Source of the DNA: Chloropicon primus | Taxonomy: Eukaryota; Chlorophyta; Chloropicophyceae; Chloropicales; Chloropicaceae | Assembly (NCBI GenBank): GCA_023205875.1 | Contig: CP060758.1 | Span: forward strand, 372,001 to 436,000 | Length of the DNA: 64,000 nt | Direction: 5' to 3' | Shown here: piece by piece, positions 43,070-58,559 of the stretch | Position numbering within the stretch: the stretch's first letter is position 1 | Layout: each line of letters begins with the position of its first letter | The notes under the pieces: generated by a model | Seen by the model: the letters and a program-made list of their open reading frames with translations, nothing else | Database searches by the model: none | Told to the model about the DNA's origin: nothing | Position numbers and translations under genes: made by a program

Positions 43070-44263
43070 ATGGCGATGGCGATGGCGAGGACGATGGCGT
43101 CGGCGTTGTTGCTCCGCGTCCTTTCATTGGAGGCGAGGGGCGGACATGTCGGAGACATCGGTTTCTCTTTGATGCGTTGGCGAAGCTGGACCGCCATGTC
43201 GTCGTCCTCTTACTCTTACTCTTACTCTTACTCTTACTCTTCGTCGAGTGCTGGGGAGGAGGAGGAGAAGGAAGGAGGGAATGCCTTGAAGGGAATGGAG
43301 AGGCTCTCGATGAGGAGTGTGGTGGAGCTGAGAGGTGAGGACAGGTACACCTTTCTTCAAGGCTTGGTGACGAACGACGTGGATGAGTTGGAGAAGGAAA
43401 CCTCGGCCAAGAAGTGCATGTACTCGCTGCTTCTGAACCACAAGGGGAGGTTTATGCATGACTTGTTCTTGTACAATGTGGGGCGTGGAGGGTCTCTCCT
43501 GATGGATGTGCACAAGCCGAGCTTGGATCTTGTCATGAAAGTGTTGAAGAGGTACAAGCTGAGGTCGAAGGTTGACGTGGAGGACGTGTCCGACAAGTAT
43601 TGTGTTTTGTACTCCACAAGCGAGGACGACTTGGTTGGCTTGCCCAACTCTGTTGCCTTCAAGGATCCGAGGCACGAGCTTCTTGGGTACAGGTGCCTGG
43701 TACAGGAGTCTGCGGGTGCGCTTCCCCCCCACCTGGCTCGAGGGAGCCCGGACAAGCACACGGCCCTGCGGTATTCTCTTGGGGTCCCCGAGGGGGACAA
43801 GGAGATGCCCTCCGGGAAGGCCATACCGTTGGAGTACAACATCGACGTCCTGAACGGGATCAGCTACACCAAGGGCTGCTACATGGGCCAGGAGCTGACG
43901 GCGCGGACGCACTTCCAAGGCCTCGTGCGGAAGCGACTCGTGCCGGCGAAGATAGTGGCGGACAAGGAGGTGCTGGCGCGGATCTCGGAGCATCTCCTCG
44001 GCGAGGGTGCCGAGGAAGAGAACCCTCTGGAGGTAGTAGACACGACGAAGCGAAAGACGAGGGGGGGGAAAGGAATAGGAACTCTGCTTGGGATTCATGG
44101 CAACCGAGGATTGGCCCTGCTGAGACTGAAAGACCTCGCCGGCAGAACCTACGGGCTGCGGCTCAAGGGGGATGCCCAACAAACCTTCGAGGCTCAAGTG
44201 GAGCCCCACTTGCCCGATTGGTGGCCGAAAGACTGGTATGCTTCCGCACAGGACACCGTCTAA
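43070..44263 (+). CDS. IBA57: IBA57-like folate-dependent Fe-S cluster assembly factor
   Basis: 397 residues, no intron. GcvT/YgfZ fold: DRYTFLQGLVTNDVDEL near 95, NHKGRFMHDLFLY, and the diagnostic K-G-C-Y-x-G-Q-E motif (TKGCYMGQELTARTHF, about residue 267) of the YgfZ/IBA57 family, with Cys retained. IBA57 helps assemble mitochondrial [4Fe-4S] clusters with ISCA proteins. The basic start MAMAMARTMASALLLRVL fits a mitochondrial (or plastid) presequence, followed by a poly-(Ser-Tyr) tract from a TCTTAC microsatellite (43208-43240), an unusual expansion in the presequence/mature junction. TGTAA at 44282-44286. Confidence 0.9.
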   Translation: MAMAMARTMASALLLRVLSLEARGGHVGDIGFSLMRWRSWTAMSSSSYSYSYSYSYSSSSAGEEEEKEGGNALKGMERLSMRSVVELRGEDRYTFLQGLVTNDVDELEKETSAKKCMYSLLLNHKGRFMHDLFLYNVGRGGSLLMDVHKPSLDLVMKVLKRYKLRSKVDVEDVSDKYCVLYSTSEDDLVGLPNSVAFKDPRHELLGYRCLVQESAGALPPHLARGSPDKHTALRYSLGVPEGDKEMPSGKAIPLEYNIDVLNGISYTKGCYMGQELTARTHFQGLVRKRLVPAKIVADKEVLARISEHLLGEGAEEENPLEVVDTTKRKTRGGKGIGTLLGIHGNRGLALLRLKDLAGRTYGLRLKGDAQQTFEAQVEPHLPDWWPKDWYASAQDTV

Positions 44264-44427: not shown

Positions 44428-47400
44428 ATGGAGATGGAGGACGAGGGGAGGAAGAAGAAGGACAAGGAGGGGCCGGGGCCGTCCTCCGAGGGGTTGGTGG
44501 GGATGTCCTCGGGGGTGAGGTCGTCCGGAAGCAAGCTCTCCGGAAGCAAGTCCTCCGCGAGGTACAACAACACGTCTTCCCTGTCCAACACCTCTTCCGT
44601 TTGGCTGAGCAAACGGAGCGAGGACCAGAGCATGAGGTTCTCCCAGTCTCTGACCATGCACCCGCTCCTGCAAGGCTCGGGCGTTACGGGGCAGGGGAGC
44701 TTGAGCAGCGGGCACAGCGGCCCGGGGGACGCGGACATCACACGAATCTATCGCGGGGACCCGCTGATGGACACGCCGCTGGAGAACAAAATTTTTTGGG
44801 AGCACACCACGTGCCTGGGGTTGCGTTTCCGGCCTTTCGGCATCGAGCGCATCTTCCTGAACGGAAGGGCGAGGCAGCGGAAGGGCGTGGTCTACTTGGG
44901 GTACGTCCTCGTGCTTCTGATCTCCCTGCTGGAATTGCTCAAGGTCTACCTTCTGCAGAGGTACCGAGGTTTGGAGTGCCCCACGGACTACAGGGACGGG
45001 TACTGCGAGGACGTGACGAGGCTGCTGTTCACGGGGACGTACGAGTACTACTTTCGGTACACCTTCCCCGCTTACGTGGTGTTCACCGTGTTGGGCTGCG
45101 GCTCGCACTATATTATTCACCGGTCGGACGCGATCCCCGACAAGGCCTGGGCCATGCTGTGCACCTTCAGCCTCTACTTCATCTTCACTTTCGCTTCGTA
45201 CGTTGTCAGCATCGTGACGGACCACGTGCACTGGCCGGACCACTTCCTGCTGACTGCTTTGGAGATGTTGACGATCTACGTCTTCTTTTCGGGGACCCCG
45301 AGCTTCTCGACGTTCGTGATCCTTTGGATTCAAGCCATGCTGGTGTACTTCGTGGCTTTCCCCATCAAGTACGACGAGCTGAACGTCGACAAGGTGAACG
45401 GGAACATCGAGGCTGTGCAGCTGAAAGTGAACTTCATGGAGAGCACGTACCCCCTCGTCATGTCGACTTTCATTTTGCTCGTGGGTGCCTGGATGAACGA
45501 GCTCATGCGGCGCAAGCAGTTCCTGCAGCGGGTCATCATGGTCGACCAGCAAGATGAGATCATAGAGCAGAAGATCAAGAACACCGAGTTGCAGAAGGCA
45601 CTTCTTGAGAACATCCTGCCTTCTTCCATAGTCAGCAAGCTCGGGGAGCAAGACTTCGCAATGAAGTCGTGGGATCAACTCAGGAAGCTGTCGCAAAGAC
45701 ACTTTGGGGTCTGCATCCTTTTCGCAGAGCTCGAAGGGTTCACCGCCTTCTCGGCCCAGGTCAATGCCTCCAAGGTCATGGAGTACTTGAACGACGTGTT
45801 CCAGGTCTTCGATGGCTTGCTGGATGATTATGATGTGTACAAGGTTGAGACGGTGGGGGACCAGTACGTGGCCGCCGTGGGCGTCGTCACCGGGAAAATG
45901 CTGAACAGGAATGTCAGCAAGGATACGGATGACGGTGGCGATGTCAGTGGCTGTGGCTCCGTCACCTTTCAAAACCCCGTTGGCAATGGCAATGGAAGCA
46001 AGGAAGAGAACGACGGCGGCGGCGACGACGGTGGATGCAACATTGAGCTCACGTCTTCGTTCAACACCGGGAAAATGATTAGCTTCGCCAAGGCCATCAT
46101 GAAGGGTTCGAGGTGCGTGGAAGCTCCTGCGGCTGACGTGAAGCCTGTGCTGCGGATAGGGCTGCACACGGGGCCTTGCATGAGCGGAATCGTGGGAACA
46201 AAAAACTTCAGGTTTTGCTTGTTCGGAGACGCGATGAACACGTCGGCCAGGATGGTTCAGACCGGCCCGGCGAATTGCATACACACCACCAAAGATGTCG
46301 CCGACCTTACCCCCGAGGAGCCCTGGGAGAAGCTGAAGTTGATTGATGTGAAGGGAAAGGGTTCGATGCAAACGTACTTGCTGCGCCTGGAGGGGCAAGC
46401 AGACGTGGACGCGATCAGCAATTCCGTGCGGTCTTACGAGAACCCTTTGCTTCAGCACACTGACAGCAAAAGAAGCGAGCAATCAGAGGAGTCGTACACG
46501 TTTAAGCTGCTGAGGGACAACTCGCGTGTGGTGCCGGGGCACAACAAATACGAGGACATCTTGCCCGTGAAGGAGAGCATCTTCAAGGCGAAAACAACAC
46601 TTTTTGGCTTGTGGTTCAAGAGCCTCGAGTGGGAGCAGGCATACCTGGATGGCGAAGCGAGGATGGTGGAGACCGAGGTATACATAGGGTACCTCTTGTA
46701 CATTCTCGTGCTGCTCACGAACGTGCTCTATGGGTACATCAATTACAGAGTGCTCAACGAGATTTGCACGAGCGAACTGAGCGCCTACAGAGAGTACTGC
46801 CTCTTGAAGTTTGGTCGAAACGCACTTGATCTGGCAGTATCAGATCCGGCGGGGAGGCAAGTGACGTACGCGGAGCTCATGAACTTTGCAGTCATCCAGC
46901 TCAGCCCTGTGAGCCTGGGCGTCCTCATAAGTTTGAATTGCGTGGGCCCGATCCTGCATTACTGGATCCATAGAAGCAGCTACGTGAAAAAGAAGTCCTG
47001 GGCCCTTCTGACAGTTTTCGTGGTTTACACTCTCAAGTTAGTCGTCATCATGTACATGATGTACGATGGAGACGTGAAGTCAAGCACCGGCGAAAACATG
47101 GATGCGGAATGGCCATCGTCGTGGGGCCCCATGATCACGACCCAAGCCCTTCTCTTGGTTTTCTTCTCGGGTGTGCCCATGAAACTCTACTTGCTGTGGT
47201 GGATCATTGCGTGCGCTCTCTACTTCGGTCTCACGCTGCCCATCCTGCTGAAAGAGGGCGCCCTGCTGAGTCAAGGTGACTACAGCGTGGTCATCACAAA
47301 CAATGAGTACATCAAGGTGACGCTACTGGTCTTCATCTATGCCATCATTCTGAACGCTGGCAAGTATTTCAAAGACGTGTCGAACAGGAAAAGGTTCCTG

Positions 47401-48270
47401 CAGCGAGTCAGCGTCCTGAAGAGCCAGGACCAGATTATCCGGGAGAAGTCCAAAAACGAGAACTTGCAGAGGCAGTTCCTGGGGAACATTCTGCCTCCCC
47501 ACTTGGTGGAAGAGCTCGAGATTGACAAATGCAGCCCGCTCGCTTCAATCGAAAGGCTCAGAACCCTCACCGAAACGCACATGGGCGTCAGTATCCTGTA
47601 CGCCGATCTGGTTGGCTTCACGTGGTTCTCCGCGCAGGTCGATCCCTTCAAGGTCATGGTCTTCCTGAATAACGTGTTCCAGGTCTTTGACGGCCTGTGC
47701 GACGAGTACGGGGTCCAAAAAGTGGAGACCGTCGGTGACTGCTACGTGGCTTCCGTGGGCGTCCTGACTGGTGAGCTCGTGAACTTCAAGTCCCCCACGT
47801 TCTCGGAAACGGCCAGGGCGTTGTTCTCACTCCAAGGATCGAGCTCGTTCTATAAGAGCTCCAGCATACATCAAAGCGTCGCACACGACGTGACGGGGAA
47901 GTTCACGGACCACAGCTCCCTCAGAACCACGGCTTCCACGAATGCGAAGAGCCTTCTCGATTTCGCGAAGGCCATGATTTTGGGCTCGAGGAGGATCAAA
48001 AAGCCCACTCTGAGAACGCCCGCGACCATGCGCATCGGCATCCATGCCGGCTCCTGCATGAGTGGCATCATCGGCACGAAGAACCTGAAGTACTCCTTGG
48101 TCGGAGAAGACGTCGTGACCGCAGCGACAATGGAGCACGAGGGAAAGCCCGATGCCATTCACGCCTCGGACGAGATCGCTTTCCTTTTACCGGACGAGGA
48201 CTGGAAGAAATTCAAGCTCCTCAAAGACAGTTACGGCGAAGACATGCAGACGTACTTGCTCGAGGTCTAA
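44428..48270 (+). CDS. Twelve-TM tandem class III nucleotide cyclase, predicted guanylyl cyclase with inverted half-domains
   Basis: 1280 residues, no intron. Plan: disordered N-terminus, six TM segments (about 155-362), cyclase domain 1 (about 415-650), six TM (about 750-980), cyclase domain 2 (about 1040-1280): mammalian adenylyl-cyclase topology. Domain 1 has purine-selecting Glu474 and Cys597 (guanylate type), transition-state Asn604 and Arg608, but Glu434 replaces the first metal Asp. Domain 2 keeps both metal aspartates (Asp1060 in YADLVGFT, Asp1104 in VETVGD) but has Val1230 and Thr1234 instead of Asn and Arg. The two halves are complementary, one site with metals from domain 2 and base/catalysis from domain 1. 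This predicts cGMP synthesis and a C2-C1 order opposite to mammals. A GA tract abuts the ATG. Confidence 0.92.
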   Translation: MEMEDEGRKKKDKEGPGPSSEGLVGMSSGVRSSGSKLSGSKSSARYNNTSSLSNTSSVWLSKRSEDQSMRFSQSLTMHPLLQGSGVTGQGSLSSGHSGPGDADITRIYRGDPLMDTPLENKIFWEHTTCLGLRFRPFGIERIFLNGRARQRKGVVYLGYVLVLLISLLELLKVYLLQRYRGLECPTDYRDGYCEDVTRLLFTGTYEYYFRYTFPAYVVFTVLGCGSHYIIHRSDAIPDKAWAMLCTFSLYFIFTFASYVVSIVTDHVHWPDHFLLTALEMLTIYVFFSGTPSFSTFVILWIQAMLVYFVAFPIKYDELNVDKVNGNIEAVQLKVNFMESTYPLVMSTFILLVGAWMNELMRRKQFLQRVIMVDQQDEIIEQKIKNTELQKALLENILPSSIVSKLGEQDFAMKSWDQLRKLSQRHFGVCILFAELEGFTAFSAQVNASKVMEYLNDVFQVFDGLLDDYDVYKVETVGDQYVAAVGVVTGKMLNRNVSKDTDDGGDVSGCGSVTFQNPVGNGNGSKEENDGGGDDGGCNIELTSSFNTGKMISFAKAIMKGSRCVEAPAADVKPVLRIGLHTGPCMSGIVGTKNFRFCLFGDAMNTSARMVQTGPANCIHTTKDVADLTPEEPWEKLKLIDVKGKGSMQTYLLRLEGQADVDAISNSVRSYENPLLQHTDSKRSEQSEESYTFKLLRDNSRVVPGHNKYEDILPVKESIFKAKTTLFGLWFKSLEWEQAYLDGEARMVETEVYIGYLLYILVLLTNVLYGYINYRVLNEICTSELSAYREYCLLKFGRNALDLAVSDPAGRQVTYAELMNFAVIQLSPVSLGVLISLNCVGPILHYWIHRSSYVKKKSWALLTVFVVYTLKLVVIMYMMYDGDVKSSTGENMDAEWPSSWGPMITTQALLLVFFSGVPMKLYLLWWIIACALYFGLTLPILLKEGALLSQGDYSVVITNNEYIKVTLLVFIYAIILNAGKYFKDVSNRKRFLQRVSVLKSQDQIIREKSKNENLQRQFLGNILPPHLVEELEIDKCSPLASIERLRTLTETHMGVSILYADLVGFTWFSAQVDPFKVMVFLNNVFQVFDGLCDEYGVQKVETVGDCYVASVGVLTGELVNFKSPTFSETARALFSLQGSSSFYKSSSIHQSVAHDVTGKFTDHSSLRTTASTNAKSLLDFAKAMILGSRRIKKPTLRTPATMRIGIHAGSCMSGIIGTKNLKYSLVGEDVVTAATMEHEGKPDAIHASDEIAFLLPDEDWKKFKLLKDSYGEDMQTYLLEV

Positions 48271-48779
48271 CCCAACTAAAACCCTTTCCCTCATTCATAA
48301 TAATCGTATTGAACTCGTTGCCTTGCATTCATCCAAACCATGAGAATGTTCTGCTTCGAGGCCAGGACCCTGCCCGACCGTGCCCTTGGGACTGACCCGG
48401 AGGAACGCATCGCAGTGGCGGGCGTGGTAAGATGAGGTGCCAAGCCACATCACCAATGCAATGCGTGGATCCCGAGGAGCCCTTCATCCACACACACACG
48501 CACGCACATCGCCAATCGCCCCTTCTCTGTAACCGTCATCCATTCATCCTCAAGATTATTTTCCCGCCACCTCCAGATCGAGCGAGAGGCGCTCAGAGAA
48601 AGAGAAAGAGAGAGAGAGAGAGAGGGAAGCAAAGGCGAAAGAAAGGGAACGGAAGCGTTCTGTCCCGAGGGATACGAACCCGAGCCGAGCCGAAGCGCGT
48701 TGTGATCTGCGGTACGCTCCTTCCTTTCCTTTGTTTTTTTTTTTTGGCTTCGTCTTCTTCTTCTCAGACGAGATCGAAG
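48271..48779. other. GCN5 leader region with 5'-UTR intron
   Basis: 509 bp before GCN5. A CACACAC/ACGC run at 48490-48508, GA tract at 48604-48623, and a probable 5'-UTR intron 48712-48767 (GTACGC donor, long T-rich tract, TTCTCAG acceptor) ending 12 nt before the ATG. A 31-codon frame at 48340-48435 starting MRMFCFEARTLP ends near a GTAAGA donor; it may be an upstream ORF or an unrecognised first exon. Confidence 0.5.
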
Positions 48780-50216
48780 ATGGCTTTGGTGTCTCAGCTC
48801 AAAGGGGAGGAGGAGGAGGATCTGCAGCCCTTGAAGAAGAAGTTGAGGACGAACGGAGTCGGAACCAAGGACGGCGGTTGTCCCGGCGAAGGGGAGCGGA
48901 CGAACGGAGACAGCAGGGCAGGGACGAACAGCGAGGCGTCGCCTTCGATCGTGAAGGCGGAGGCCAGTGACGCCGTCCGTGAGGTGAAGCCAGAGACCCC
49001 TTCTGCCCCATCCCCTTTGCAGTATAGGCAGGTGAACGGTGCGTACACGGAGAGAGAGGCGTGGCTGACGAAGCAGGAGCTTGAGGGTGACATCAGGTTC
49101 GAGTGCATCAGGTACGATGACCGCAAGGAGGGCAACACGACGCACTTGGAGTGGCTGCTCGCTTTGAAGAATATTTTCTCCAGGCAGCTGCCCAATATGC
49201 CAAAGGAGTACATCGCCAGGCTCGTCTTTGATAAGCACCATAGGTCGATGGTCGCTTTGAAGAAGGACAAGGTGTTCGGGGGGTGCACATTTAGATGTTT
49301 TGAGAACCAGGAGTTCGGGGAGATCGTGTTCTTGGCCATTGCCGCCCAAGAGCAAGTGCGCGGTTACGGCACGAGACTCATGAACCACCTCAAGGAGTTC
49401 GCCAAGCGGGAGGAGAAGCTGACCCACTTCTTGACGTACGCGGACAACAATGCGATCGGTTACTTCCAGAAACAGGGTTTCACGAGGGAGATCTTTTTGG
49501 AGAGGGAGAAGTGGGGGGGATTCATCAAGGACTACGACGGTGGCACGCTCATGGAGTGCGCGCTGAACTTCCAGCTGTCCTACACGCAGTTCTCCAAGAT
49601 CATCAAGCAGCAGAGGGATTTCTTGGACTCTCAGGTGAAGAAGATAAGCAGGTCTCACATAGTATACCCCGGCCTGCAGTTCTTCAAGGACCTGAAGCCG
49701 GGAGAATACAAGAGGGCCGACATCGCGGGTATACCGGGCGTGAACGAGGCCCTTGAACTGAAGAAGAAAGAGACGGATTCAAGTGATAGTGCACCTGTTG
49801 GGTCGGAAGAAGAGCAGAGGGCTGCTTCTTTGGGCCTGACCAAAGCCAAGTTCCAGCTCGTCACCCCCGCTGGCTTGGTCACCCCAAGTATGCCGAGCTT
49901 GCATTCCTTCATGACCAGAGTTCACGCGGCAGTCGTTGATCACGCGGACAGCTGGCCCTTCAAAGAACCCGTCGATCCTCTGGAGGTTCCAGACTACCAC
50001 GACGTCATCAAGGATCCCGTTGACCTGAGTCTCGTTGCCAGGAGAATCTGCTCGTACGAGTACTACATCAAGCTGGAAATCTTCGTAGCCGATTTCAAGA
50101 TGATGTTCACCAACGCGAGGATGTACAACTCACCAGACACGATTTATTACAAGTGCGCGAACAGGCTGGAATCGTTTTTTGACGACCAAATAAGGAGCGG
50201 CATATCCTTCACATGA
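48780..50216 (+). CDS. GCN5: GCN5-type histone acetyltransferase with bromodomain
   Basis: 478 residues, coding part intronless. Residues 1-85 are disordered. The GNAT acetyltransferase domain (about 90-270) has LVFDKHHRSMVALKK, catalytic Glu in FGEIVFLAIAA, the acetyl-CoA loop EQVRGYGTRLM and TYADNNAIGYFQKQGF. The C-terminal bromodomain (about 365-475) has WPFKEPVDPLEVPDYHDVIK, the ZA loop, and the acetyl-lysine Asn in ARMYNSPDT. This is the catalytic subunit of SAGA/ADA complexes, acetylating H3 K9/K14. It lacks the animal PCAF N-terminal domain, matching plant and yeast forms. Confidence 0.97.
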   Translation: MALVSQLKGEEEEDLQPLKKKLRTNGVGTKDGGCPGEGERTNGDSRAGTNSEASPSIVKAEASDAVREVKPETPSAPSPLQYRQVNGAYTEREAWLTKQELEGDIRFECIRYDDRKEGNTTHLEWLLALKNIFSRQLPNMPKEYIARLVFDKHHRSMVALKKDKVFGGCTFRCFENQEFGEIVFLAIAAQEQVRGYGTRLMNHLKEFAKREEKLTHFLTYADNNAIGYFQKQGFTREIFLEREKWGGFIKDYDGGTLMECALNFQLSYTQFSKIIKQQRDFLDSQVKKISRSHIVYPGLQFFKDLKPGEYKRADIAGIPGVNEALELKKKETDSSDSAPVGSEEEQRAASLGLTKAKFQLVTPAGLVTPSMPSLHSFMTRVHAAVVDHADSWPFKEPVDPLEVPDYHDVIKDPVDLSLVARRICSYEYYIKLEIFVADFKMMFTNARMYNSPDTIYYKCANRLESFFDDQIRSGISFT

Positions 50217-55781: not shown

Positions 55782-58559
55782 TTAAATCTGTATTTCTCTG
55801 ACGAGAGGCTTGCGGATGTGCCGCATTGTGGCCCCAGGCTCGGTCGGCTTGAAGGGCGCGCTCGTTCCGTATGGCTTGGGTATTCCCAGGTCTTCAGGAA
55901 TGTACGCGTTGGGCCGAGGAATGGCCGTGGTCAGAGTCTTGTTAGCATCCAAGGCCATCGCATCGAGCTCCTTGTTCCTCTGGGACATCTCCTCGACGGT
56001 GATCCTCTCGTTCTCCATCCTGTACCACTCCTTCTCCGCGTCTTCTGTTGGAGCGATGCCGTTCTCAAGGTTGACTCCAGCCGTGTGAACGACCTCCTTG
56101 AGCTCCATGTTGTCCTCCTTGAGGGACATGGCCTGGGCCTGGAACATCGAGAGCTCGCTCACGGTCGCCATCATCTTCCTTGTGATCTGCCTGATCCTGC
56201 TCTGGAAGTCGTTCACTCTCTTGGCCAGCTCCAAGGTCTCGCTCCGCCCTCCCGTGGCCTGGGCCTTCAACCTCTGCGAGAGGGAAGAGATTTCCTCCAG
56301 AATCAGCGTCTTCTCCAGCAACTGCTCCCTCTTGTCGTTCAGGCGGTCTTCCAGCTGCTTCAGCTTGGCGTTCAGCTCCTCCTTGTCAGGAATCTTTCCC
56401 TCCAATTTCCTCCACCTCTTGTTGTTGTTGGGGTCTTCCAAGTCCTTCTCGAGCTTGACGGCCTGCTCCTTGGCCTCCAGAAGCTGCTGCTTGTGCAAAA
56501 CAATTTGCCTATCGTACAAGGAGATCTCTGGAGCAAGCTTCCTGTTCACGTCTATGCTCCTCCTGAGCTCCTTCACCTCGATGTTGAGGGACCTGATCTC
56601 GTTGCCCTTTTGGGTGAGCACGACCTCTCCCTGGCGAATGACCTCCTCCTGAATGTTGGACTTCTCGTACAAGATGCACAGCTCGTCGTTTCTATCTATC
56701 AGCAAGATTCCAGTGTGGTTTCTAGCTTCTACTGCCACCTCGTACATCCTCTTCAAGCGCAGCATGTCACGCTCGGTGCAACTGATGATGGAGTTCAGCT
56801 TATCTATCTCGGATATCTGCTCCTCGATGACCTCCTGCTTCTGCTTGAAGACGAAGGCGCACTTGTTCAACTCGGTTCGCACGTGCTCCCTGTCGGCTTG
56901 GGACGTGGATCGGTCCAGCCTTGCCTTCGCCAGGAGCTTCTCCTTGTTCATGGTCTCCGTTCTAAGAATTTCGAGCTCGTTGGAGAGGATCTTCAGCTTC
57001 TCCTTCATCTCAGCAATGCTTTGACTGCTGGCCTGAATCAAGTTCACAAATTTGTTCCTCTGGCTCTTCACCAGCTCGTAGAGCTGCTGGAACTCGTGAA
57101 GCCTTCTGAAGGTGTCCTTCTTCTTCTTCTTCAGGTCCGCTCTGATCATATCCTTCAGCTGAGCCACCTCGACTGCCTCCTTGAATTTGTTCAACTTCGA
57201 AACGACCTGGTGCTGAACCCTCTCCTTCAAGTTCTTCAGCTCCATGATGTTCCTTTCCCTCTGAAGCTCCTCCTTCTTGAGAAGTACCAGTTCCTTCTCG
57301 GACTCCACCACTTCGGCGTAAGACTGCTGGAACAGAAGCGTCTTTTCCTTTCCCCTGCTCTCTTCCTGCATGTAGTAGTCCATGCTAGCCTCGATCTCCT
57401 TCTTGATGCTTACTATGGAGACGTGCTGCTTCTTGATCTGAGACTCGTACAAGACAATGGAGTGCTTGATCTGCTCGAGCTGGTTCTCCAGACCAGGAAT
57501 GTTTGCCTTGACGTGCTTGCACTGGGCCTCGACCTTCTTGAACTTCCTTAGGGTCTTGTCCTTCTCCTTCTGCCTCCTGTTCAGGTTGTCAACGGCATTC
57601 TGAGACTCCTCCTTGCACCCTTTCAGCTCAAAGTCAAGCTTCACCTTGTCCGCCAAGAGCTGCTCGGACTCGATCTCGAGGGTGTCCAACTCCTTTCTCA
57701 ACAAGTCGACGATCCTTTCCTTCTGCTGCTGGACGATCTGGCTCTTCTCGAGCTGGGAGTTCATCTTGAAGTGGTCGTCGTTCAAGAACTTGAGCTTCTG
57801 GTTGTTTGCCTCCGAGTTTTTCTCGATGCCGTTGAGCTTGTCCTCCAAACCCGACTCCTGAGTCCTCAGCTTATCGAGGGCCTTGTTGAGAAGCTCCGTT
57901 TGCTTTCGAATTTTGTCCGGAAGGGACTCGATTCGTGACAGGGCGACTTCCTGGGTAGCTCTCTCGTCCTCGATCTTCTTAATGCCATCGTCAAGGACCT
58001 TGATTTTCGAAACGTACTCCTGGAGGCTCTCTTTGGCGGTCTCCCCCTTGACGAGCTCCTGGTCTCTCTCGTCCTCGATGTCAGCGATCTGCAGCCGCAG
58101 CTCTTTGACCTGAGGCTCGATCTCCTTTGCCTTCTCGATGTCGAGCGCTTCCACGTTCAACTTCATTCTATCCCTCTGTCTCTGGAGCTCGTTCATTTCC
58201 AACAGCAAAACTTGTTCCCTCTCAAGCCCGAGCGCGACCTCCGCTTTCGCTTGCTGCAGATCTTCCCTCAGACTGCTTAGAGTTGTGCTCTCTCCCTCCT
58301 CCCGTATTCCTCTCCCGCTCTCCATCTTGAGCTTCTCCTCCGCGAGCTGCTTCTCCAGCTCACCCAGTTGGGTCTCCAAACTCTCGTCACTCTCCTTGGC
58401 TCGCTTGAGCTCCTGGAACATCTGTGAGAAGACTCTCTTGAACCGCTCCACCTTCTCCTCCGAAACCTCTCCATCTTCCGAAGCTTTTTCCAGCAGACCG
58501 AACGCCTCCGAAGTGGAGAACGTCTCCAGGTCAAACGCAACCTCCTCTCCCTCCTCCAT
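55782..58559 (-). CDS. CCDC39: CCDC39 (FAP59) axonemal ruler protein
   Basis: 925 residues, intronless, almost entirely coiled coil; human CCDC39 is 941 residues. The C-terminal region NLENGIAPTEDAEKEWYRMENE and AMALDANKTL, ending with NAYIPEDLGIPKPYG and a basic IRKPLVREIQI tail, fits CCDC39. With CCDC40 it sets the 96-nm repeat and docks inner dynein arms and the nexin-dynein regulatory complex. Its presence implies motile 9+2 flagella. A CT run (58741-58766) lies about 180 bp upstream, GA on the gene's strand. Confidence 0.9.
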   Translation of the reverse strand: MEEGEEVAFDLETFSTSEAFGLLEKASEDGEVSEEKVERFKRVFSQMFQELKRAKESDESLETQLGELEKQLAEEKLKMESGRGIREEGESTTLSSLREDLQQAKAEVALGLEREQVLLLEMNELQRQRDRMKLNVEALDIEKAKEIEPQVKELRLQIADIEDERDQELVKGETAKESLQEYVSKIKVLDDGIKKIEDERATQEVALSRIESLPDKIRKQTELLNKALDKLRTQESGLEDKLNGIEKNSEANNQKLKFLNDDHFKMNSQLEKSQIVQQQKERIVDLLRKELDTLEIESEQLLADKVKLDFELKGCKEESQNAVDNLNRRQKEKDKTLRKFKKVEAQCKHVKANIPGLENQLEQIKHSIVLYESQIKKQHVSIVSIKKEIEASMDYYMQEESRGKEKTLLFQQSYAEVVESEKELVLLKKEELQRERNIMELKNLKERVQHQVVSKLNKFKEAVEVAQLKDMIRADLKKKKKDTFRRLHEFQQLYELVKSQRNKFVNLIQASSQSIAEMKEKLKILSNELEILRTETMNKEKLLAKARLDRSTSQADREHVRTELNKCAFVFKQKQEVIEEQISEIDKLNSIISCTERDMLRLKRMYEVAVEARNHTGILLIDRNDELCILYEKSNIQEEVIRQGEVVLTQKGNEIRSLNIEVKELRRSIDVNRKLAPEISLYDRQIVLHKQQLLEAKEQAVKLEKDLEDPNNNKRWRKLEGKIPDKEELNAKLKQLEDRLNDKREQLLEKTLILEEISSLSQRLKAQATGGRSETLELAKRVNDFQSRIRQITRKMMATVSELSMFQAQAMSLKEDNMELKEVVHTAGVNLENGIAPTEDAEKEWYRMENERITVEEMSQRNKELDAMALDANKTLTTAIPRPNAYIPEDLGIPKPYGTSAPFKPTEPGATMRHIRKPLVREIQI

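Follow-up and report, generated by a model that had tools for sequence, protein, structure and literature searches.

The two-domain membrane guanylyl cyclases (GCs) of protists offer the closest described layout for the gene analysed here. Passages of PMC6592433 and PMC5746546 describe ATPase-linked GCs as carrying two sets of six transmembrane (TM) helices, with nucleotide contacts in the first catalytic domain and metal-binding aspartates in the second. In the same part of PMC6592433, Dictyostelium GCA has two guanylyl cyclase domains and no ATPase-like region, and the title of a reference on it (Roelofs 2001) cites the topology of mammalian adenylate cyclase. A simpler form, the Mycobacterial Cya/Rv1625c-type homodimer, in which six TM helices precede a cyclase homology domain (6TM-CHD), is presented in sections of PMC9433096 and PMC9552081 as the ancestor type of membrane adenylyl cyclases (ACs). 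Within the green lineage, GCs were reported in 2019 as one of the largest gene families of Chloropicon primus, with 30 members (a passage of PMC6731263), and guanylate cyclase expansions are mentioned for C. roscoffensis in part of PMC12301720. The window, a stretch of 64,000 nucleotides (C5:372001-436000, on contig 5) of the C. primus genome of 17,584,162 bases in 20 contigs, contains a tandem 6TM-CHD-6TM-CHD gene of this tiny marine green picoalga (Chloropicophyceae). Its product, the window cyclase, is probably an integral-membrane class III GC with one composite GTP site, which would have arisen by duplication, fusion and complementary decay and have an independent origin.

Complementary cyclase domains and homologous membrane modules

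The gene and its parts are arranged as follows.

44428..48270, plus strand: whole gene, tandem 6TM-CHD-6TM-CHD cyclase; ATG start, open throughout, 1280 aa plus stop
44884..45507, plus strand: membrane module 1, residues 153-360, six hydrophobic segments; from hydropathy, helices in the structure model and homology to module 2
45508..45687, plus strand: helical linker 1, residues 361-420, RKQFLQRV...ENILPSSIV, resembling linker 2; from sequence, mostly helical in the model
45688..46395, plus strand: cyclase domain 1 (D1), the nucleotide half, residues 421-656; E474, C597, N604, R608, K642, K644, with E434 replacing the first metal Asp
46684..47361, plus strand: membrane module 2, residues 753-978, six hydrophobic segments; from hydropathy, module homology and the model
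47362..47565, plus strand: helical linker 2, residues 979-1046, NRKRFLQRV...GNILPPHLV; from sequence and the model
47566..48267, plus strand: cyclase domain 2 (D2), the metal half, residues 1047-1280; D1060 and D1104 kept, Asn, Arg and the KGKG lysines lost (V1230, T1234)

The sole Pfam match of the protein is PF00211 (E 2.1e-70; 236.5 bits against a cut-off of 21.9), a score far above chance that places it among the class III nucleotidyl cyclases; the scan finds no P-type ATPase domain in the 1280 residues. The decisive residues are divided between the two cyclase domains. Specifically, D1 carries E434, E474, C597, N604, R608, K642 and K644 and retains the second metal aspartate (D478), and D2 carries D1060, E1100, D1104, S1223, V1230 and T1234, with no KGKG lysines. 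The catalytic role of each metal, base and transition-state position is well established for class III cyclases. Against solved cyclases, the D1 residues align on the matching positions of GC-A, and both D2 aspartates on those of AC9 C1. Glu474 and Cys597 fill both base positions of the half that holds Asn and Arg, the residue signature by which a GC is recognised; D2 also carries a guanine-type glutamate (E1100), but Ser1223 in place of the cysteine. Metazoan transmembrane AC (tmAC) rows in the same alignment have their metal aspartates in the first domain, Asn and Arg in the second, and Lys and Asp at the second domain's base positions, so that by its decisive residues the window cyclase has its halves swapped relative to mammals. 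In the comparison with solved structures, the best stretch for D2 falls in C1 of AC9, AC8 and AC5, and that for D1 in C2 of AC9 and AC5. Additionally, D2 matches the alpha subunit of soluble GC (sGC) far better than the beta subunit (E 2.5e-18 versus 6.4e-8).

This division is conserved across 24 tandem proteins, comprising the window cyclase and 23 relatives, some partial, five of which show only the end of D1. In D1, Asn and Arg are present in 24/24, and Glu occupies the first metal site in 17 of the 19 rows that have a letter there. In D2, both metal sites are Asp in all 24, and Asn and Arg are missing in all 19 rows with a letter. Read at the level of sequence, the conservation is the pattern of two complementary half-sites. 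The relatives were drawn from the best 120 of 334 matches and the best 120 of 160, and several bear the labels 'guanylate cyclase' or 'nucleotide cyclase' in public records (P numbers below). The residue alignment contains part of the relatives from the first of these lists and 20 reading frames from the same genome; the genes on contigs 7 and 15 enter it only as P0010, P0012 and P0013, the divergent C14, C20 and C1:1824k matches are absent from it, and six D2 fragments were excluded from one comparison built on this set. The conservation count omits P0121 (reverse order), P0142 (one domain split in two), P0002 and proteins with one scored domain (P0019, P0021, P0023, P0126, P0127 and others).

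P0002 is a metagenome protein of 1187 aa, 74% identical over 94% of the window query. It is a mosaic, its first about 460 residues matching the contig 7 genes and its last about 700 equalling the window gene, with the switch point in the conserved D1 domain; it is either a natural recombinant or an assembly chimera. It is present in the residue alignment and in the alignment behind the structure model, and is excluded from the domain and TM-module trees.

Two homologous modules, each of six TM helices, a helical linker and a cyclase domain, appear to be fused head to tail. Hydropathy (mean Kyte-Doolittle 1.3 over 19 residues, a threshold chosen by the analyst) gives 12 segments, six ahead of each cyclase domain. 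With this setting, those relatives whose two modules are complete or almost complete show 4 to 8 segments per module (5+5 in P0003 and P0012, 6+8 in P0125), and because these counts vary, the 12 TM helices of the window cyclase are a prediction. The predicted membrane segments are helical in an AlphaFold model (mean pLDDT 69.7), whose best full-length fold matches are AC5, AC9 and AC8 among comparison rows that are mainly catalytic parts plus full-length ACs. In a 16-sequence comparison, TM module 1 scores E 5e-30 against TM module 2 (28% identity), E 1e-28 against its counterpart in a single-domain paralogue and only E 0.05 against an insect AC2 module. The homology between the two modules indicates that the 6TM-linker-cyclase unit was duplicated. 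Among the matches listed, module-long relatives are Chloropicon proteins or metagenome proteins that group with Chloropicon.

The initial annotation had been made from this sequence alone, and most of its description holds. Every residue it numbered lies at the assigned position, including the guanylyl-type pair and Asn604/Arg608 in D1, Glu434 at the first metal site, and the D2 domain with both aspartates and without Asn and Arg. Its topology of the mammalian AC kind (as a prediction), its swapped halves, its absence of a P-type ATPase and its putative green-lineage host are likewise borne out. Its statement that only one composite site can work stands as a plausible single site; Glu434, which it had cited ahead of that statement, would not by itself prove a dead site, and the inactive second site rests mainly on the loss of Asn, Arg and the lysines from D2.

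These features suggest a mechanism in which D1 and D2 would come together as a pseudo-heterodimer where a single site works. D2 would give the two Mg-binding aspartates, D1060 and D1104, and D1 would give guanine recognition (E474, C597), the transition-state pair (N604, R608) and a lysine of the KGKG loop. The mirror site, without Asn, Arg and Lys, is expected to be dead. GTP-to-cGMP turnover would be controlled, via the linkers, by a signal perceived within or across the membrane modules, and the whole would derive by duplication, fusion and complementary decay from a single-module homodimeric green-algal cyclase. Possible cyclic-nucleotide partners found by genome scan are seven PDEase_I matches and 97 cyclic-nucleotide-binding (cNMP-binding) domain matches, 10 of them under the cut-off, together with the 4 of 13 listed G-alpha matches that exceed the curated cut-off (C2:773.7k, C8:372-375k (two) and C15:568.9k).

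Origin of the layout and competing explanations

The 17 Chloropicon-type domains of a 50-row domain tree, from both halves, all fall in a single clade (100/100), which lies inside the green-algal cyclases (98/95). Forcing D1, with the second domain of the contig 12 paralogue, to join the D1 domains of ATPase-linked proteins is rejected (approximately unbiased (AU) test, p 0.001), as is joining D2 to ATPase-linked D2 (p 0.0001) or to tmAC C1 (p 1e-6). The ATPase-linked rows are P0028 (Phytophthora kernoviae) and three proteins with the ATPase Pfam domain PF16212. With its homologous six-TM module and its CHDs in this one clade, the window cyclase falls in the Chloropicon 6TM-CHD family. Since both halves share the clade and the joinings are rejected, its layout seems to have arisen independently of animal tmACs and ATPase-linked GCs. 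Of the two origins that the initial annotation had left open, 'independent or ancient', the domain tree favours the former and speaks against the latter. The domain tree with P0124 and the TM-module tree also omit the near-copies P0013, P0121, P0017, P0018, P0127 and fragments, and a meeting of long branches (P0024, P0125) is flagged in the TM-module tree.

Several points weigh against the favoured reading of a GC with one composite site and an independent origin. D1 is not cleanly C2-like, its best stretch in AC8 being C1, and its matches to sGC alpha and beta are of similar strength (3.5e-16 and 4.6e-16), although no preference is expected of a nearly complete domain. D1 also has one metal aspartate plus a glutamate, which leaves room for a D1:D1 site, and purine specificity read from two residues is a prediction. 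The confidence of the structure model is moderate (pLDDT 69.7, pTM 0.54; TM-score to AC5 0.41 at 13 Å). The D2 letters at the Asn and Arg positions are doubtful in P0004, P0006 and P0008, which come from cut gene models, and the tandem rows share ancestry and do not represent 24 independent events. Finally, Dictyostelium GCA and named domains of ciliates or apicomplexans are absent from the trees.

The D1:D1 site would belong to a homodimer between two molecules, in which metal is held by E434 and D478 and D2 has a regulatory or structural part. D1 retains D478, E474, C597, N604, R608 and both lysines, a Glu could bind Mg, and the D1 of P0021 even retains Asp at the first metal site; this arrangement is nonetheless unlikely, because the D2 metal aspartates are kept in every tandem protein while the other catalytic residues of D2 drift, which fits a metal-donor role, and because the first site of D1 is almost always Glu. 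An AC despite guanylyl-type residues would explain the tmAC-like topology and the top fold matches, and the title of the rhodopsin-GC structure 5oyh ('with converted specificity') indicates that specificity can change. The base contacts of D1 are, however, Glu and Cys, as in most GC rows and unlike the Lys and Asp of tmACs, and D1 groups with guanylyl-type green-algal cyclases; filing the gene as an AC was rejected on base residues and tree, and we consider this assignment quite improbable.

The half order could also be ancient, inherited with the ATPase-linked GCs or tmACs of other eukaryotes, as the shared order of the ATPase-linked GCs suggests (our alignment; a passage of PMC6592433). A paralogue on contig 11 with inverted halves has a D2 beside tmAC C1 and ATPase-linked D2 (94/94), and such a lineage may therefore exist in the genome. 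For the window gene itself, the single Chloropicon clade, the three AU rejections and the mutual homology of the two TM modules make ancient inheritance very unlikely; membership in the ATPase-linked family was rejected on the missing ATPase and the AU tests. Equally far-fetched is a protein that has lost catalysis and acts as membrane receptor or scaffold only, for although neither domain is complete alone, the two together hold the full residue set and keep it across relatives.

Half order among paralogues and genomic setting

The near paralogues with the half order of the window gene, nucleotide half first, lie at C9:535-539k, on contig 15 (two copies) and on contig 7 (three copies); one contig 15 copy (as P0010) and two contig 7 copies (as P0012 and P0013) were residue-checked. 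The three contig 7 genes form a near-identical tandem array (C7:767.8-779.2k), and the contig 15 pair has identical match scores with the genes 9.4 kb apart (C15:361.5-374.6k); both are recent duplications. A single-module cyclase at C9:269-271k (619 aa, public record P0138), with 6 predicted TM helices and all residues intact, branches at the base of the D1 group (96/95) and is of the green-algal guanylyl type by tree and residues.

The gene at C12:340572-344165 (L061:573-4166, plus strand; 1198 aa, P0121; 6+6 predicted TM) has the metal half first, which is the mammalian order. Its first domain carries both metal aspartates with Ser/Ser for Asn/Arg, and its second reads E, E, D, C, N, R, K, K and nests among D1 domains in the domain trees. 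By these residues, the inverted order of the window cyclase is not fixed. The first CHD and first TM module of this gene cluster with P0124, a single-module protein from a metagenome (99/98; 100/99), and not with the second module of the window gene, which suggests that it was assembled separately; its second TM module groups with P0014, P0122 and P0123 (100/99). The idea that it is the window gene with halves simply swapped was rejected on the same groupings. Against a separate assembly, its first CHD is a flagged long branch, joining it to the D2 domains alone is weakly rejected (p 0.039), and joining them with P0124 added is not rejected (p 0.33 twice), so that one origin of all metal halves is possible. 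P0123 and P0124, single-module 6-7TM cyclases from metagenomes, show complementary losses, the second metal Asp being Asn in P0123 and Asn/Arg being Thr/Lys in P0124; they are perhaps unfused complementary halves, or else cut gene models.

Two longer open reading frames (ORFs) extend the range of architectures. At C11:689.7-694.4k (L046:1175-5938, plus strand), a 1588-aa ORF has two cyclase domains, with inverted halves, behind a cyclic-nucleotide-binding domain; its D2, a long branch, has the position in the 50-row tree given above, so that this genome may hold an ancient inverted cyclase. At C18:54.8-60.8k (L048:1297-7290, minus strand), a 1998-aa ORF in mammalian order comprises a cyclase domain (metal half), a metallo-beta-lactamase-like stretch (26.6 bits, below the cut-off of 27), a cyclic-nucleotide-binding domain and a cyclase domain (Asn/Arg half). 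Its beta-lactamase/cNMP pair is reminiscent of Dictyostelium cGMP phosphodiesterases, and by this analogy the ORF might make and break its messenger.

Whether Chloropicon offers a natural replay of pseudo-heterodimer evolution seems to us evenly balanced. Under this proposal, at least two separate fusions of one green-algal 6TM-cyclase module, still complete on contig 9, would have produced opposite half orders in one genome; the order would then reflect chance in how the modules were fused, not a requirement. It is an open question why membrane cyclases have to carry twelve TM helices and a site that is crippled. One small published genome holds a complete single module, a fused inverted form and a fused mammalian-order form side by side, and this set allows direct tests of the importance of half order and of the role of the membrane modules. 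A large candidate cGMP system is also added to a widespread marine alga.

Within the window, the cyclase gene lies between a CAF17/GcvT-like gene upstream (43070-44263) and a bromodomain-acetyltransferase gene downstream (48432-50216), and the Pfam scan finds no ATPase families in seven other scanned window ORFs. A CFAP58-like coiled-coil gene occupies 55782-58559 on the minus strand. CFAP58 is a flagellar protein family. Vegetative cells of C. primus have no flagella, according to a passage of PMC6731263.

Comparison with known cyclases

The half order and 12-TM layout are already known from the ATPase-linked GCs of ciliates and apicomplexans, and Dictyostelium has a comparable protein with two domains and no ATPase, as parts of the literature searched describe. 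The initial annotation had named only ATPase-carrying relatives, which is right for ciliates and apicomplexans and incomplete in view of Dictyostelium GCA (part of PMC6592433). A 6TM-CHD-6TM-CHD architecture was not found for a green alga in the portions of the literature searched, supplementary files lying outside that search. Neither an independent green-algal origin nor the presence of both half orders in one genome is described in those same portions.

The window cyclase shares its inverted half order with the ATPase-linked GCs, including Toxoplasma ATPaseP-GC, and differs from them in lacking an N-terminal P-type ATPase and in the placement of its halves in a different clade from the tested ATPase-linked rows. 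Dictyostelium GCA reportedly has 12 TM helices and a transposed domain order. The window cyclase resembles it in 12 predicted TM helices, two CHDs in transposed order and no ATPase; the host of GCA is an amoebozoan, and the likeness is one of architecture. The single module at C9:269-271k has in Chloropicon the counterpart role of the Cya/Rv1625c type, from which it differs in being of the green-algal guanylyl type. Like sGC alpha/beta, the window cyclase combines two unequal domains, and its D2 resembles alpha far more than beta; unlike sGC, which consists of separate soluble subunits with other sensor domains, it is a fused membrane protein, and its D1 shows no beta preference. Finally, it shares a predicted 6TM-CHD-6TM-CHD arrangement with the mammalian AC1-9, which supply its best full-length fold matches, and it departs from these tmACs in its swapped domain roles, in Glu/Cys versus Lys/Asp at the base and, on the tree evidence, in what seems to be a separate origin.

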